DNA from: Glycomyces tenuis DSM 44171
GTDB taxonomy: Bacteria > Actinomycetota > Actinomycetes > Mycobacteriales > Micromonosporaceae
DNA length: 64,000 nt
NCBI RefSeq assembly: GCF_000427885.1
Contig: NZ_ATYW01000015.1
Coordinates: 62,001-126,000, forward strand
Reading direction: 5' to 3'
Positions within the stretch are counted from its first letter, which is position 1. Each line of letters opens with the position of its first letter. The position numbers were made by a program, and so were the translations under genes. This document shows positions 50,226 to 55,862 of the stretch, one piece after another. The notes under the pieces were generated by a model that saw only the letters and a program-made list of their open reading frames with translations, made no database searches and was not told the origin of the DNA.

Positions 50226-52471
50226 TAAAGCTTCGTGATCGGGGCGAGCCTGAGGATCACCCATTTGGGCTCGCCGTCGCCGAAGTCGATGCGCGCCTGC
50301 GCCCTCGGGCCCGAGCCCTTGAGCTCGACGACCCGGCCCAGGCCCCACTTGTCGTGGGTGACCCTGTCCCCCACCTCCAAGGACGGCACGTCCGCCGGGT
50401 CGCGGATCGCGATCGGCTGCCCGAAGGAGGGCGTGCGGCCCTTCGGCGGGCGCGGCGGCGGCGCCGCCTCGGTCCATTCGATCAGCCCCGAGGGGATCTC
50501 GGAGAGGAAGCGGCTGGCGGCGTAGAACTCCGGCTGCCCGAACACGTTCCGCGTCCCGGCGCGGGTGACGTGCAGGTGCTTGCGGGCCCGGGTGAGGCCC
50601 ACGTACGCGAGCCGCCGCTCCTCCTCCAGCTCGCTCGGCTTCGACATGGACCGCTCGTGCGGGAACATGCCGTCGTCCATGCCGGTGAGGAACACGGTGT
50701 CGAACTCCAGGCCCTTCGCGGTGTGGAGCGTCATCAGCGTCACCACGCCGCCGTCCCCGGCCTCGGGGTCGGGAATGGAGTCCGCGTCGGAGACCAGCGC
50801 GACGTGCTCCAGGAACGAGGCGACGTCGGCGGCCATGTCGGGCTCCTCGTCGACGGCGTCGGCCGCGCCGCGCACGACCTGCTCGGTGAACTCGTGGGCG
50901 ACGGCCACGAGCTCCTGGAGGTTCTCCACGCGGCCTTCGTCCCTGGGGTCGGTGCTCTGCTCGAGCCCTTCGAGGTAGCCGGTGTCGGCGATGAGCTTGT
51001 CGAGGACCTCTTCGGGCCCGGCCGTGCGCGCCAGTTCGGTGGCCTCGTCGATGATCTCGCAGAACCGCTTGATGCCGCCGCGGGCCCGCGCCGAGACACC
51101 GGCGGCCTCGTCGGCGCGGTGCAGGGCCGCCGGGAAGGAGATCCGGTGCCGGGCGGCGAGCGCCTCGATCTCGGCGACGGCGCGGTCCCCGACGCCCCGC
51201 TTGGGCACGTTGACGACTCGCTGCGCCGAGACGGTGTCGTCGCCGTTGACGGTGAGCTTGAGGTAGGCCAGAAGGTCGCGGACCTCTTTGCGCTCGTAGA
51301 AGCGCACGCCGCCGACGACCTTGTAGGGGATGCCGCGGCGCACGAAGACCTCTTCGAAGGCGCGGGACTGAGCGTTCGTCCTGTAGAAGATCGCGACGTC
51401 GCCGAAGGCGGTCTCCTTGGCGTCGACGAGCTCGTCGATGCGGTTCGCGACCCAGGCGGCCTCGTCGTGCTCGTTGTCGCCGGTGTGGCCGAGGATGGGC
51501 GCGCCCGCGCCCTCGTCGCTCCACAGTCGCTTCTCGCGGCCGCGTTCGGTGTTGTTGCGGATGACGCCGTTGGCGGCGTCGAGGATCGTCTGCGTGGAGC
51601 GGTAGTTCTGCTCCAAGAGGATCGTCTTCGCGTCGGGGTAGTCGCGCTCGAACTCGATGATGTTGCGGATCGTGGCGCCGCGGAAGGCGTAGATGGACTG
51701 GTCGGCGTCGCCGACGACGCACAGCTCAGCGGCGTCCTCGCCGGTGCCGACGAGCTCCCGCACGAGGACGTACTGGGCGTGGTTGGTGTCCTGGTACTCG
51801 TCGACCATGACGTGGCGGAACCGCATCCGGTAGGACTGGGCGACCTCCGGGAAGGCCTGGAGCAGGTGGACGGTGGTGCCGATGATGTCGTCGAAGTCGA
51901 CCGCGCCGGCCAGTCGCAGGCGCTCGTCGTACTGGGCGTAGACGTCGGCGATGAGCCGGCTGCGGGCGTCGTCGGCCTCGGCGGCGGCCCGCTCGGGCCC
52001 GATGAGCTCGTTCTTGAACCGGGAGATCTCGGCGGCGAACCAGCGCGGCGAGTGCTTCTTGGAGTCGAGGCCGAGTTCCTTGACGATCTGGGTGAGCAGC
52101 CGCCGGGCGTCGTCGGTGTCGTAGATCGTGAAGCTCGACTTCCAGCCGAGCCGGTGGGCCTCGCGGCGCAGGATGCGCAGGCACGCCGAGTGGAACGTGG
52201 AGACCCACATGGCCCGCGAGCGGGGCCCGACGAGGGCGTCGACGCGTTCGCGCATCTCGGCGGCGGCCTTGTTGGTGAAGGTGATCGCGAGGATCTGGCC
52301 GGGGTGGACGCCGCGCTCGGCGAGGAGGTGGGCGATGCGGTGGGTGAGGACGCGGGTCTTGCCCGATCCCGCTCCGGCGACGATGAGCAGGGGCGAACCG
52401 GCGTGCTCCACGGCTTGTCGCTGCGGTTCGTTGAGGCCGGTCAGCAGGGCTTCGATGGCGTCGTGACTCAT
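50225..52471 (-). CDS. pcrA: ATP-dependent DNA helicase UvrD/PcrA
   Basis: 748 residues, full-length superfamily 1A helicase. Motifs in order: Q-motif LNEPQRQAVEH, Walker A VAGAGSGKT, Ia ITFTNKAAAEMRERV, II VDEYQDTN, III GDADQSIYAFRGA, IV LEQNYRST, V LMTLHTAKGLEFDTVFLTGM, VI YVGLTRARKHL. It ends VILRLAPITKL, the normal C-terminus (Tudor-like). It unwinds DNA in nucleotide excision and mismatch-like repair and removes RNA polymerase. Its TAG stop overlaps the MITE edge. The chorismate mutase gene upstream matches the mycobacterial order Rv0948c-Rv0949. Confidence 0.96.
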   Translation of the reverse strand: MSHDAIEALLTGLNEPQRQAVEHAGSPLLIVAGAGSGKTRVLTHRIAHLLAERGVHPGQILAITFTNKAAAEMRERVDALVGPRSRAMWVSTFHSACLRILRREAHRLGWKSSFTIYDTDDARRLLTQIVKELGLDSKKHSPRWFAAEISRFKNELIGPERAAAEADDARSRLIADVYAQYDERLRLAGAVDFDDIIGTTVHLLQAFPEVAQSYRMRFRHVMVDEYQDTNHAQYVLVRELVGTGEDAAELCVVGDADQSIYAFRGATIRNIIEFERDYPDAKTILLEQNYRSTQTILDAANGVIRNNTERGREKRLWSDEGAGAPILGHTGDNEHDEAAWVANRIDELVDAKETAFGDVAIFYRTNAQSRAFEEVFVRRGIPYKVVGGVRFYERKEVRDLLAYLKLTVNGDDTVSAQRVVNVPKRGVGDRAVAEIEALAARHRISFPAALHRADEAAGVSARARGGIKRFCEIIDEATELARTAGPEEVLDKLIADTGYLEGLEQSTDPRDEGRVENLQELVAVAHEFTEQVVRGAADAVDEEPDMAADVASFLEHVALVSDADSIPDPEAGDGGVVTLMTLHTAKGLEFDTVFLTGMDDGMFPHERSMSKPSELEEERRLAYVGLTRARKHLHVTRAGTRNVFGQPEFYAASRFLSEIPSGLIEWTEAAPPPRPPKGRTPSFGQPIAIRDPADVPSLEVGDRVTHDKWGLGRVVELKGSGPRAQARIDFGDGEPKWVILRLAPITKL

Positions 52472-52610
52472 AGGTAAGCCATTATGCCCCGGCGCCCTGA
52501 CACGGCTCGCACCACAGCGGCCGCGGGTCGGGTCCGCGCCGTCTCGCGCGCTTCGCCGGACGGCCGCCGGGGGGGCGGCCCGCCGGACACGGCGGGCCTC
52601 CGCGCTCCCT

Positions 52611-52880
52611 CTAGAGCGGCCCGCGGCCGGCTCGGAGAATGAGCATCGCGATCTGCGTGCCGTCCTCGCCGAGGGCTTGGCGGTACTTGTCGAGGATGGC
52701 GCGTTCGCGGTCGAGGACGAGGCGGGTGCCGCCGCCCGCCATGCGGATCTCGCCGACGCGTTTGGACACGTCCGCGCGTTCCTTCCACAGGCGGATGATC
52801 TCGTTGTCGAGCGTGTCGATCCGGGTGCGCAGCTCGCCGAGCTCGTCGGTCCCGGTCTGGTCGGCAGTGGTGGCGGTCAT
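52611..52880 (-). CDS. Chorismate mutase, AroQ-delta type
   Basis: 89 residues from the ATG at 52880, which follows GAAGGAGAA with 8-nt spacing. An upstream in-frame ATG at 52955 lies in the terminator region and is not used. The helical AroQ fold shows LRTRIDTLDNEIIRLWKERADVSKRVGEIRM with the catalytic Arg and Lys, and a short C-terminus LILRAGRGPL, as in M. tuberculosis Rv0948c. Such short enzymes are weak alone and activated by DAHP synthase. It converts chorismate to prephenate for Phe and Tyr. A transcription attenuator with an aromatic leader peptide precedes it. Confidence 0.94.
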   Translation of the reverse strand: MTATTADQTGTDELGELRTRIDTLDNEIIRLWKERADVSKRVGEIRMAGGGTRLVLDRERAILDKYRQALGEDGTQIAMLILRAGRGPL

Positions 52881-52941
52881 CAGGGCTTCTCCTTCAATGT
52901 TTCGGATCGATTGTCCGGGTTCGGGCCCTGGGCGCGGAAAA

Positions 52942-52966
52942 AGCCCCGGGCTCATCGCCCGGGGCT
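52942..52966 (-). terminator. Attenuator terminator
   Basis: AGCCCCGGGC and GCCCGGGGCT with a 5-nt loop, followed on the minus strand by TTTTTCC. It is the 3:4 hairpin of the attenuator ahead of chorismate mutase. Confidence 0.85.
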
Positions 52967-52978
52967 GTAGGTCTGTGG

Positions 52979-53047
52979 TCAGCGCGACGACCTACGGCTC
53001 GGACGATCCGTGCCGTAGTAAAAGTAAAATCGCGCGTTCTGATTCAC
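52979..53047 (-). CDS. Leader peptide of the chorismate mutase attenuator (22 residues)
   Basis: GTG at 53047 and TGA ending at 52979. The peptide contains RFYFYYG at residues 6-12, that is two Phe and three Tyr codons in five positions, then a polar tail ending RRSSR. There is no ribosome-binding site. A CATACT box (minus strand, about 53050-53060) ends about 7 nt before the GTG, suggesting a leaderless transcript. The Tyr codons overlap arm 1 of the first hairpin, as required for attenuation by Phe/Tyr-tRNA levels. Confidence 0.75.
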   Translation of the reverse strand: MNQNARFYFYYGTDRPSRRSSR

Positions 53048-53060
53048 GTCGGCAAGTATG

Positions 53061-53095
53061 CCACACGCCCGCCGGTGACACCAGCGGGCGTGTGG
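53061..53095 (-). terminator. Hairpin after the first thioester surface protein gene
   Basis: CCACACGCCCGC and GCGGGCGTGTGG form a 12-bp stem around 11 nt, 65 bp downstream of the stop codon of the LPETG gene. There is no T-run. It also abuts the leader promoter of chorismate mutase. Confidence 0.55.
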
Positions 53096-53159
53096 GCCTT
53101 GTCTCAGATTCCGTGTCGCGGGTCGCGCTCAGGCGAGGGTCCGCGGCGGACGGGATCGG

Positions 53160-54299
53160 CTACTTCTCCTCGCCGTCCCCGCCCCAGTCGGCGCCCGCGG
53201 TGGCGGCGCGGCGGCGCATGAGCACCAGCGCGACGACACCGGCGGCCACGACGGCGGCGCCGATGCCGGCGACCATGGTCAGGCTGGTGCCGGTCTCGGG
53301 CAGCTGCGGCTGGGCCGAAGGGCTCTCCGAGGGGACGTCCTCGACGACGATCTCGAACTCGAGCTCGGCGGCGATCTCCTCTTCGTGGGCCTCGGCCAGG
53401 ATGAGGTTCTGGCCGGGGATGTTCTCCTCGTTGACCGGGACGAAGACGCGGCCGACCGGCGTGGTCCAGATGACCGAGTCGGTCACCAGTGAGACGGTGC
53501 CGGACTTCTCCTCGTCGAATTCGACGTAGAAGGTCTGGCCGTCGGTGAACTCGGTGACCTCCTCGCCGTTCTCGTCGACGATGGTCGCGCCCTCGGGCTG
53601 GGTGAAGCTCACCGAGCCGAGGTTGGTGGAGACGGTGAAGGGACCGTAGGTGGTGCCGTCGACGACCGCTTCGGAGTCGTCGGCCTCGAAGTACGGGTCC
53701 ATGTCGGGCTCGTCGGCCGGCTCGGTCTCCAGCAGGTGCGTCTGGATGGCGGCGACGGCCTCGTCGACACCCTGCTCACCGCCGGTCGGGTCCTCGTCGA
53801 TGACCCACTTGTCGGTCAGGGCCCAGACCGCGGCCTGGGTGCCGGCGTAGGCGACCTGCTCGGGAGTGTAAGGGCTGATGTCCTTGTCGGAGACGCCGGC
53901 GGCCTCGATGAGCTCGGCGGCGTTGGAGCCGTTGTAGCCGGCGAGCAGCACGCCGAGCACCTTCGGCAGGTCCTCGACGGGCACCTCGTCCCAGGTGCGC
54001 TCCTCGTGGACGTCGCTGCCGCGCAGGCCCACTTCGATCTGGATGCAGTAGACGAGGCGGACGTCGCCCTCGCCCAGTTGGAGGCCCAGGAGGCTGGCCT
54101 CGACGTCTTTGTTGACCGACGAGCCTTCGCCGGGGAGCGATCCGTTGAGGATGATGCCGTCGCCGAGGTCGACGAAGGATCCGGTGACGGCCGTGGGGGC
54201 GTCGTCGCCGTCCTGAGCCAGCGCGACTCCGCCGGCTCCCAGGCCGACCGCGACGCCGGCGGCAACGGCCAGTGACCCTTTCAGGGCTTTTTTGATCAT
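53160..54299 (-). CDS. Sortase-anchored thioester-domain surface protein (LPETG)
   Basis: 379 residues. It has a signal peptide (1-28), a thioester domain (about 35-190) with the Cys in YCIQIEVG and the Gln in AGTQAAVWAL (the TQXA motif that makes the internal Cys-Gln thioester), an immunoglobulin-like region (200-330), then the sorting signal LPETGTSLTMVAG, a membrane helix and a basic tail (RRRAA). The thioester reacts with surface amines, so the protein likely acts as a covalent adhesin. It is paralogous to the gene at 54708. A -10-like TATAGT (54469-54474) lies upstream. Confidence 0.88.
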   Translation of the reverse strand: MIKKALKGSLAVAAGVAVGLGAGGVALAQDGDDAPTAVTGSFVDLGDGIILNGSLPGEGSSVNKDVEASLLGLQLGEGDVRLVYCIQIEVGLRGSDVHEERTWDEVPVEDLPKVLGVLLAGYNGSNAAELIEAAGVSDKDISPYTPEQVAYAGTQAAVWALTDKWVIDEDPTGGEQGVDEAVAAIQTHLLETEPADEPDMDPYFEADDSEAVVDGTTYGPFTVSTNLGSVSFTQPEGATIVDENGEEVTEFTDGQTFYVEFDEEKSGTVSLVTDSVIWTTPVGRVFVPVNEENIPGQNLILAEAHEEEIAAELEFEIVVEDVPSESPSAQPQLPETGTSLTMVAGIGAAVVAAGVVALVLMRRRAATAGADWGGDGEEK

Positions 54300-54707: not shown

Positions 54708-55862
54708 TCACCTGGTCTGTTCGGCTGCGGCCTTCCGCCGCACCAAGGCCATCACGGTGAGTCCGCCGATGAGCATCGCGAGCCCGGTGGCGAAGACGAC
54801 GGTGAGGTTCGCTCCCGTCTCCGGCAGTTGCGGCCGGGCCGCTTCGGTGGCGCTCTCGCCGGGGCGCTCGTCGGCGGGCAGTTGCAGGGCGAAGGCCCAT
54901 TCGGCGGGGATGTCGGCCGCTCTCGGCTCGGCGAGGATGAGCATCTGCGAGTCGCCGGACTTGACCGGGTTGACCGCGTCGCCCGAGAGCGACTCGTCGG
55001 TGGTGGCCATGAAGATCCGACCCACCGGCAGGTCGTGGGAGGCGTGCCCGGTGATGGTGATCTCCTCGGAGCCCTCGTCGAGCACGATGTAGAACTCGTC
55101 GCCGTCGTCGAGCGAGGTCACCTCGCCGCCGTCGGCGTCGACCAGGCTTCCGCCGTCGGCGCCCAGCTCGACCGGACCGGCGTTCGAGCGGATCGTGTAG
55201 GGCCCGAACCTGCCGTCCTCATAGGAGGCCTGTTCGGTTCCTTCGAGCTCGATGTAGAACTCCGAGGGGTCGGGGACGCGCCCGGCGTTCGCGGTCAGGT
55301 GCTCGTAGATCGCGGCGACGCCCTCGCTCTGTGCCGCTTCGCCGCCGATGACGGCGTCGTCGGCGTCGAGCTTGAAGCCGTCGGTGAAGTGCCACACGGC
55401 GGCCTGCGTGCCCGCGTAGGCGACGCGCTCGGTCTCGGCCGGGTCCCAGTCGGCGGCGGGCGCGGCGCCCGCGGCCTCCAGCAGCGCCTCGGCGGTGACG
55501 TTCGGGTGGCCGTTGAACAGGACCCAGCGGACCTTCTCGAGGTTGGCCACGCCCGACTCCTCCCAGTCCCCTTCGGTGTAGGGGCTGTCCTGGTCGAGCT
55601 CGGTGCGGATGTCGACGCAGTAGACCTGGAGCGTCTCCTCGCCGCCGTGCGGCGTGAGGCCCAGGACGTTCGCCCAGGTGTTCCACTCCTCGCCGTCGAG
55701 GGTGCCGCGCAGCTCGAGGCCTTCGTCGATGACGATGTCGCCGCTGACCGGCTCGGCTTCGGCGTCCTCTTGGGCGCCGGCCGGGCCCGCCGGGGCGAGC
55801 GCGGCGAGGGCCGCGGCGGCGAGCGTCGCGACGAGTGGGGCGGGGCTCGGGTGTCGTCTCAT
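54708..55862 (-). CDS. Sortase-anchored thioester-domain surface protein (LPETG), second paralog
   Basis: 384 residues with the same architecture as its neighbour: signal peptide ending AGAQ, thioester domain with Cys in VYCVDIRTELD and Gln in AGTQAAVWHFTD, a beta-rich stalk (VGRIFMATTDESLSG resembles VGRVFVPVNEENIPG in the paralog), then LPETGANLTVVFATG, a membrane helix and a basic end. Overall similarity to 53160-54299 is moderate, so the duplication is old. Paired thioester adhesins suggest surface attachment, possibly to plant or fungal material. The sortase is not in the window. Confidence 0.88.
   Translation of the reverse strand: MRRHPSPAPLVATLAAAALAALAPAGPAGAQEDAEAEPVSGDIVIDEGLELRGTLDGEEWNTWANVLGLTPHGGEETLQVYCVDIRTELDQDSPYTEGDWEESGVANLEKVRWVLFNGHPNVTAEALLEAAGAAPAADWDPAETERVAYAGTQAAVWHFTDGFKLDADDAVIGGEAAQSEGVAAIYEHLTANAGRVPDPSEFYIELEGTEQASYEDGRFGPYTIRSNAGPVELGADGGSLVDADGGEVTSLDDGDEFYIVLDEGSEEITITGHASHDLPVGRIFMATTDESLSGDAVNPVKSGDSQMLILAEPRAADIPAEWAFALQLPADERPGESATEAARPQLPETGANLTVVFATGLAMLIGGLTVMALVRRKAAAEQTR

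Follow-up and report, generated by a model that had tools for sequence, protein, structure and literature searches.

A predicted Phe/Tyr leader-peptide attenuator before the chorismate mutase gene of Glycomyces tenuis and its relatives

Analysis of a 64,000-nucleotide stretch of the Glycomyces tenuis DSM 44171 genome (the window, to which all positions refer) indicated that its chorismate mutase (CM) gene is preceded by what is probably a trp-type, ribosome-mediated transcription attenuator, controlling CM by the charging of tRNA-Phe and tRNA-Tyr, a reading to which we give a probability of roughly 88%. The leader, its control codons, the pairing arms and the spacing were conserved, and the alternative pairings were matched by lineage. 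At the level of sequence, these comparisons strongly support the element as a widespread new member of a known attenuator kind, and they both uphold and extend the reading of an earlier note on this DNA.

Results

Along the minus strand, the gene order was two thioester-domain proteins, the attenuator, CM and pcrA (Table 1). The CM passed both models of high-GC actinobacterial CMs, with 96.4 bits against a cut-off of 73 for NF005894 and 76.1 bits against 52.15 for TIGR01808. Its closest named relatives were those of Glycomyces species, such as G. arizonensis (88%), and its class label is presumably AroQ-delta. The two thioester-domain neighbors (PF08341) were located at 53160-54299 and 54708-55862, the first with an LPXTG-type anchor. 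A CATAAT was found 9 nt 5' of the pcrA ATG (52471-52486), giving pcrA a near-leaderless appearance; with this start of its own for pcrA, CM is perhaps transcribed alone.

Table 1. Features of the attenuator locus in the window
Feature	Position	Strand	Description and basis
Leader ORF	52979..53047	minus	GTG start, MNQNARFYFYYGTDRPSRRSSR, 22 residues; TGA stop 52981-52979; probably translated leaderless
Control codons Phe-Tyr-Phe-Tyr-Tyr	53015..53029	minus	codons 7-11, TTT TAC TTT TAC TAC; kept in alignment A1
-10 element CATACT	53055..53060	minus	7 nt 5' of the leader start codon
Region 1:region 2 hairpin (anti-antiterminator)	52982..53035	minus	outer GCGCGA/TCGCGC and inner CTACGGC/GCCGTAG helices; MFE, RNAalifold consensus
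Region 2, antiterminator 5' side	52989..53004	minus	GTCCGAGCCGTAGGTC; stalled-ribosome constrained folds, permutation test
Region 3 and terminator 5' arm, antiterminator 3' side	52957..52973	minus	GACCTACAGCCCCGGGC; constrained folds, permutation test
Intrinsic-type terminator	52938..52966	minus	AGCCCCGGGC-gatga-GCCCGGGGCT and T tract, 10-bp stem; sequence, fold, comparison
Chorismate mutase (CM)	52611..52880	minus	89 aa, AroQ type; PF01817, NF005894/PRK07857, TIGR01808
Shine-Dalgarno AAGGAG of the CM gene	52889..52894	minus	read from the sequence

The 22-codon ORF with a GTG start and the run Phe-Tyr-Phe-Tyr-Tyr, on which the earlier note was built, was found in its place, with its stop codon directly 3' of region 2. 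The leader was preceded by CATACT or CATAAT in the Glycomyces loci, and among 96 distinct leaders there were 92 whose start codon followed the -10-like hexamer at a distance of 6-7 nt; because the leader finder pre-set this spacing to 5-9 nt, the informative part is the sharp peak at 6-7 nt. A Shine-Dalgarno (SD) core 4-mer was present 5' of just 3 of the 96. Given this spacing and the rarity of the SD core, leaderless translation of the leader, which had been described as apparent, is likely. It would be in keeping with the phylum, since several leader peptides in Streptomyces are leaderless according to the available text of PMC8079986. A simple promoter and terminator scan of 52800-53300 reported no promoter and no terminator, so that both calls rest on direct reading and comparison. 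A long near-perfect inverted repeat (CCACACGCCCGC...GCGGGCGTGTGG) at 53061-53095 adjoined the -10 element of the leader and filled the promoter spacer; it recurred, by eye, in Glycomyces loci and may represent either an operator or the terminator that ends the surface-protein gene upstream.

The attenuator RNA folded with -55.9 kcal/mol (z -6.4), and 0/200 shuffles were equally good. The hairpin that includes the Tyr codons was present as claimed earlier, with its inner arms CTACGGC at 53018-53012 and GCCGTAG at 52998-52992, and the competing pairing between GCCGTAGGTC and GACCTACAGC was confirmed with 9/10 pairs. The terminator, described earlier as a 10-bp GC stem with TTTTT, was likewise present 57 nt before the CM ATG at 52880. 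Its stem spanned 52966-52942 and TTTTT spanned 52942-52938, with one T closing the stem, so that only four T were unpaired. The terminator scan demanded five T in the eight bases past the stem and thus did not list it. The Glycomyces rows of alignment A1 showed a GC stem with four or more consecutive T, and the terminator arm CCCCGGGC was almost invariant in this alignment, which may be due to its pairing with region 2.

The fold with a stalled ribosome was calculated by masking the RNA up to 12 nt beyond the first nucleotide of the last aromatic codon and holding the terminator 3' arm unpaired. GUCCG.GC.GUAGGUC was then paired with GACCUAC.GC..CGGGC, in which GUCCG (53004-53000) was bound to CGGGC (52961-52957), which forms the terminator's inner 5' arm. 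The antiterminator had been said to take the base of the terminator; this overlap was seen, but the claim was an understatement, since the inner 5' arm was paired as well. At full length, the terminator together with a 7-bp partial region 2:region 3 helix reached -36.3 kcal/mol versus -22.3 kcal/mol for the antiterminator. With the terminator better by 14 kcal/mol, exclusion must be kinetic and the choice made during transcription. The structural choice of the trp attenuator is likewise made during transcription. Because the 7-bp core avoids the arm, the region 2:region 3 helix was at first suspected to be compatible with the terminator; this objection was dropped for the kinetic case once the constrained folds showed the extra 5-bp pairing with the arm.

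The pairings were examined across lineages by a partner test, in which the duplex energy of a segment with its own partner was compared with that obtained when partners were permuted among leaders (5000 permutations). The test preserves composition, not relatedness, and its sample of 32 CM leaders, about one per genus, avoided a structure-biased alignment. None of the 5000 permutations was as good as the real partners for region 1:region 2 or for region 2 with region 3 plus the terminator arm (z about -7), whereas region 1:region 3 showed no lineage matching in these representatives (1188/5000). This is the pattern of mutually exclusive structures, and the exclusion claimed earlier stood to that extent, although the 7-bp core by itself is compatible with the terminator. 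Outside the window's own family, f1 (20 leaders, with the window's retained), the values were 1/5000 for region 1:region 2 and 0/5000 for region 2 with region 3 plus the arm. Region 3 without the arm (150/5000) and the arm alone (328/5000) were each weak, and the joined stretch was strong; control tests on reversed sequences and flanking segments of the CM leaders were not significant. Two-sided covariation was thin in the close family (3/22 pairs, covariation term -0.33), where conventional pair counts say little because most pairs are invariant. A shuffle-based z-score of the antiterminator was discarded, as the hairpin finder had misplaced some terminators and the whole terminator had entered the folded piece. 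Terminators were still misplaced in at least L061, L108, L140, L170 and L179, none of them among the representatives, and the terminator bounds were loose in L065, L107, L112 and L120, all of them representatives. Alignment A2, in which a region 2 gap was misplaced, was left out of the results.

A protein search revealed CM in 59 of 61 genomes, including the window's genome, and the upstream region was inspected for 57 of the 59; G023, a match at a contig end, was left out, as was G041, whose match was weak and dissimilar. The strict leader rule called for an ATG or GTG ORF of 11-32 residues with at least three aromatics in seven residues and xAnnnT 5-9 nt upstream. Leaders before CM were found by this rule for 51/57 CM genes in the order and for 56 with five more by eye (L028, L155, L156, L157 and L158), which had fewer aromatics or an odd -10. 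All 15 families examined in the order had at least one leader; in f4, f10 and f14 it was recognized solely by eye or under a relaxed rule (two aromatics in five) that matched 3/143 reverse strands. The strict rule matched 0/96 and 0/143 reverse strands and 0/240 tiles of the window, in which a tile edge had cut through the real leader. A covariance model, R1, found one copy in the window's own genome (E 0.01, strict filters). Conservation in close relatives had been set beforehand as the check that could overturn the reading, and the reading came through it: an aromatic leader was seen by eye before CM in each of the first 30 loci (the window's and 29 relatives), and both alternative helices were lineage-matched across families.

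A class-wide sample of 118 genomes had 26 with a CM match, from which 23 further places were examined. By the strict rule, a leader was present in 14 of the 23 (3/4 in the same order and 11/19 in other orders), one of which, L179, was doubtful; the other 8 of the 19 CM places in other orders had no leader by this rule, among them L177 with just 64 nt upstream. The leader was absent before the CM genes L153 and L167 of the order. The CM of two genomes of family f8 with the genus label g35 (L153/L165 and L167) had no aromatic leader, and the four examined f8 genomes of g23 have one; a lineage-specific loss in the f8 g35 genomes is possible. In f8 (L161-L163 and L117), the leader RRFFYGYR.AVPV was kept and the T tract was poor (GTCTCTT, GTCTGTT), so that a mechanism other than intrinsic termination may operate there. 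The terminators of some distant CM leaders also had weak T tracts, and transcription attenuation may therefore not hold in every lineage.

Related leaders were found before aroF by R1 matches and direct inspection, for example MQRNFWRFYGYRPTGTVARRALR, MRTAWSFWYGDGP, MTRWFGYFTGSG and MQRNFWRFYGYR. The aroF gene of L036 matched NF006421 and TIGR01361, and the other aroF genes were recognized by their similarity to it; we take the product to be a class I-beta DAHP synthase. At E 1e-60, with three weaker matches left out of the set, aroF was present in 64/148 class genomes and had no match in the window's genome. The strict rule found leaders in 29 of 63 upstream stretches, two of the 63 being too short for a call (82 nt in L086 and 54 nt in L124). 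No leader was found at the aroF loci L072 and L080, and the ten aroF genes examined in family f34 had none by the strict rule. In the partner test on 22 aroF leaders, region 1:region 2 gave 3/5000 and region 2 with region 3 plus the arm gave 2 to 6/5000 in three runs; the values were 0/5000 for region 3 without the arm, 4460/5000 for the arm alone and 60/5000 for the reversed control, which was low enough that part of the aroF signal is composition.

Trp occurred within residues 4-14 in 27/32 aroF leaders versus 2/63 CM leaders, counts that are not independent since the leaders are related by descent. L149 (MDRCWYATWSRW) had been dropped as a chance aroF leader before this count. Counted by family, Trp was in the majority in 0/16 CM families versus 8/11 aroF families, the aroF exceptions being f52 (half), f43 (a minority) and f41 (none), and family f46 had both states on its two targets. 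The difference fits the logic of the pathway, since DAHP synthase serves all three amino acids and CM only Phe and Tyr. R1 matches with an aromatic leader and a recognized target were located upstream of CM or aroF, genes whose products agree with the control codons; those lacking a recognized aromatic target (L042, L047-L050, L054, L055 and L057-L059) were taken as chance. In the window's genome, neither the prephenate dehydratase gene nor that of the class II DAHP synthase had an aromatic leader by the rule used, so that, judging from these two other pathway genes, attenuation in Glycomyces may act at the CM step. This class II DAHP synthase (L186) was apparently leaderless itself (TAGGAT, 6 nt, GTG).

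The length and order of the aromatic run varied between lineages (FYFYY, FYGYY, FYFY, FFY, RFYG, FYLYY and FYFFY) at a constant block position, as is expected of control codons. Phe was encoded by TTT in 34/36 cases among 18 distinct Glycomyces leaders, and TTT made up 0/337 Phe codons in 27 non-overlapping ORFs of the window. The choice of these ORFs (at least 250 codons, GC3 > 0.85) favors GC-ending codons, but the absence of TTT is still striking. For Tyr, the Glycomyces leaders had TAC 52 times and TAT never, following the genome habit (220 to 9 in the window ORFs). Across 63 CM leaders, Phe was TTT in 91 cases and TTC in 36. The TTT codons may slow decoding or keep the run unpaired.

Discussion

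The locus combined a run of end-product codons, mutually exclusive pairings in which region 1 contains the control codons, an antiterminator that sequesters the terminator arm, and a GC stem with a T tract, which are the hallmarks of trp-type attenuation. The precursor formed by CM serves only Phe and Tyr, and the window's leader carries just these two; this match was counted in favor of an attenuator. From these features we infer a transcription start, ribosome stalling, read-through and a response to amino acids as follows. Transcription would start at or next to the GTG, and the ribosome would load straight onto the 5' end. A shortage of Phe-tRNA or Tyr-tRNA would make the ribosome stall in FYFYY and cover region 1, leaving region 2 (GUCCGAGCCGUAGGUC) free to pair with region 3 and the terminator 5' arm before the 3' arm is made; with this antiterminator formed, RNA polymerase would continue into the CM gene. 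With both tRNAs charged, the ribosome would reach the stop codon just past region 2 and cover region 2, and the terminator would form. If the leader is untranslated, region 1 would hold region 2 and the terminator would also form.

Other readings of the leader were weighed against this mechanism. In one, the nascent ARFYFYYG would be an arrest peptide that stalls the ribosome on its own or with a ligand such as free Phe or Tyr, and the switch would read the stall and not the charging. TnaC is a precedent for an arrest peptide with a free amino acid as ligand, and the core RF-(F/Y)n-YG recurs across families, with ARFYFYYG nearly invariant in the genus. However, the aromatics change in number and order (FYFYY, FYLYY, FYFFY, FYGYY, FYFY and RFYG), the region 1:region 2 helices account for the codons of A-R (GCGCGA) and Y-G (UACGGC), and TTT is held although TTC is the sole Phe codon in the sampled window ORFs, which points to selection at the codon or RNA level. 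An arrest peptide is thus improbable in our judgement.

We consider it just as improbable that the leader and hairpins set the access to the CM ribosome-binding site or act in reinitiation, with the terminator-like hairpin incidental. Weak T tracts in some distant members would suit such translational control, as would the translation attenuation by cysteine leaders in M. smegmatis reported in the available text of PMC13236596. Against it, a GC stem with at least four T is seen in the Glycomyces rows of A1, the SD at 52894-52889 sits 43 nt past the T tract and, by eye, the leader has no CUCCUU partner for it, and the lineage-matched pairing was strong only with the terminator arm included. Very unlikely, and the least probable of the three, is a promoter with an ordinary small protein or sRNA gene and its own terminator, CM being promoted separately. 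Such a leader could act in trans, for which peTrpL is a precedent, but families differ in the peptide sequence around the aromatic block, both the region 1:region 2 and the region 2:region 3 pairings are lineage-matched, and the R1 matches with an aromatic leader and a recognized target fall before CM or aroF, in agreement with their control codons.

Beyond this locus, the trp-type attenuator may belong to an old, class-wide set of leaderless attenuators of the Actinomycetia whose leaders encode the end products lying beyond the controlled step (Phe and Tyr before CM; Phe, Trp and Tyr before DAHP synthase) and in which the genome-avoided TTT heightens the sensitivity to Phe-tRNA shortage; we would bet evenly for and against this wider picture. 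The attenuator offers a possible and testable answer to how these bacteria adjust the chorismate-to-prephenate branch, and the Trp contrast between CM and aroF leaders is a natural test of whether control codons follow the logic of the pathway.

A survey from 2005 described actinobacterial attenuators for trp, ilv and leuS and, in its available text, no conserved RNA structures before the Phe/Tyr operons of its actinobacterial genomes (PMC1262725), as against an element found here before 51/57 CM genes in the order and 29/63 aroF genes in the class. The available text of PMC8079986 lists eight leaders in S. lividans, none of them for Phe or Tyr. A Phe/Tyr leader before a stand-alone actinobacterial CM was likewise absent from the available text of PMC5784534, PMC2965389, PMC1173090, PMC4633059, PMC9094748, PMC13236596 and PMC4833913. 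The suggestion that such an attenuator may be undescribed therefore holds for the open-access literature as far as searched, with a prior report in a subscription paper possible; a close relative is known in AroR of C. glutamicum. Rfam at the gathering threshold recognized only three tRNAs in the window, and a permissive search gave sub-threshold matches only. The sole leader-type family among these weak matches was the leader-peptide attenuator Leu_leader (RF00512), of which the element is not a member, with 22.6 bits against a gathering score of 50.

In E. coli, pheL-pheA is controlled by Phe-tRNA and has a leader with an SD of its own. The pheL-pheA system is leader-peptide attenuation, according to the available text of PMC11802643, and like the Glycomyces element it precedes a gene with chorismate mutase activity. 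Unlike it, the system is proteobacterial and its target is a bifunctional CM-prephenate dehydratase. The original paper on the aroR-aroF attenuator of C. glutamicum is reportedly that of Neshat 2014. Its leader peptide, AroR, contains F-Y-F and is located before aroF (available text of PMC4046766 and PMC11802643), whose transcription was raised under Phe limitation, with Tyr supply having no effect (available text of PMC11802643). Likened here by its published description, as far as available, the system resembles the Glycomyces element in being actinobacterial, in its F-Y-F leader and in regulating the entry to the aromatic pathway, and differs in that its target is DAHP synthase instead of CM; other aroF genes of the class have leaders similar to the CM leader. 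The trpL, leuL and ilvL leaders of Streptomyces and Corynebacterium share with it control-codon leader ORFs and hairpins, and several are reported to be leaderless, but they serve other amino acids and other targets, as described in the available text of PMC1262725, PMC8079986 and PMC5784534.
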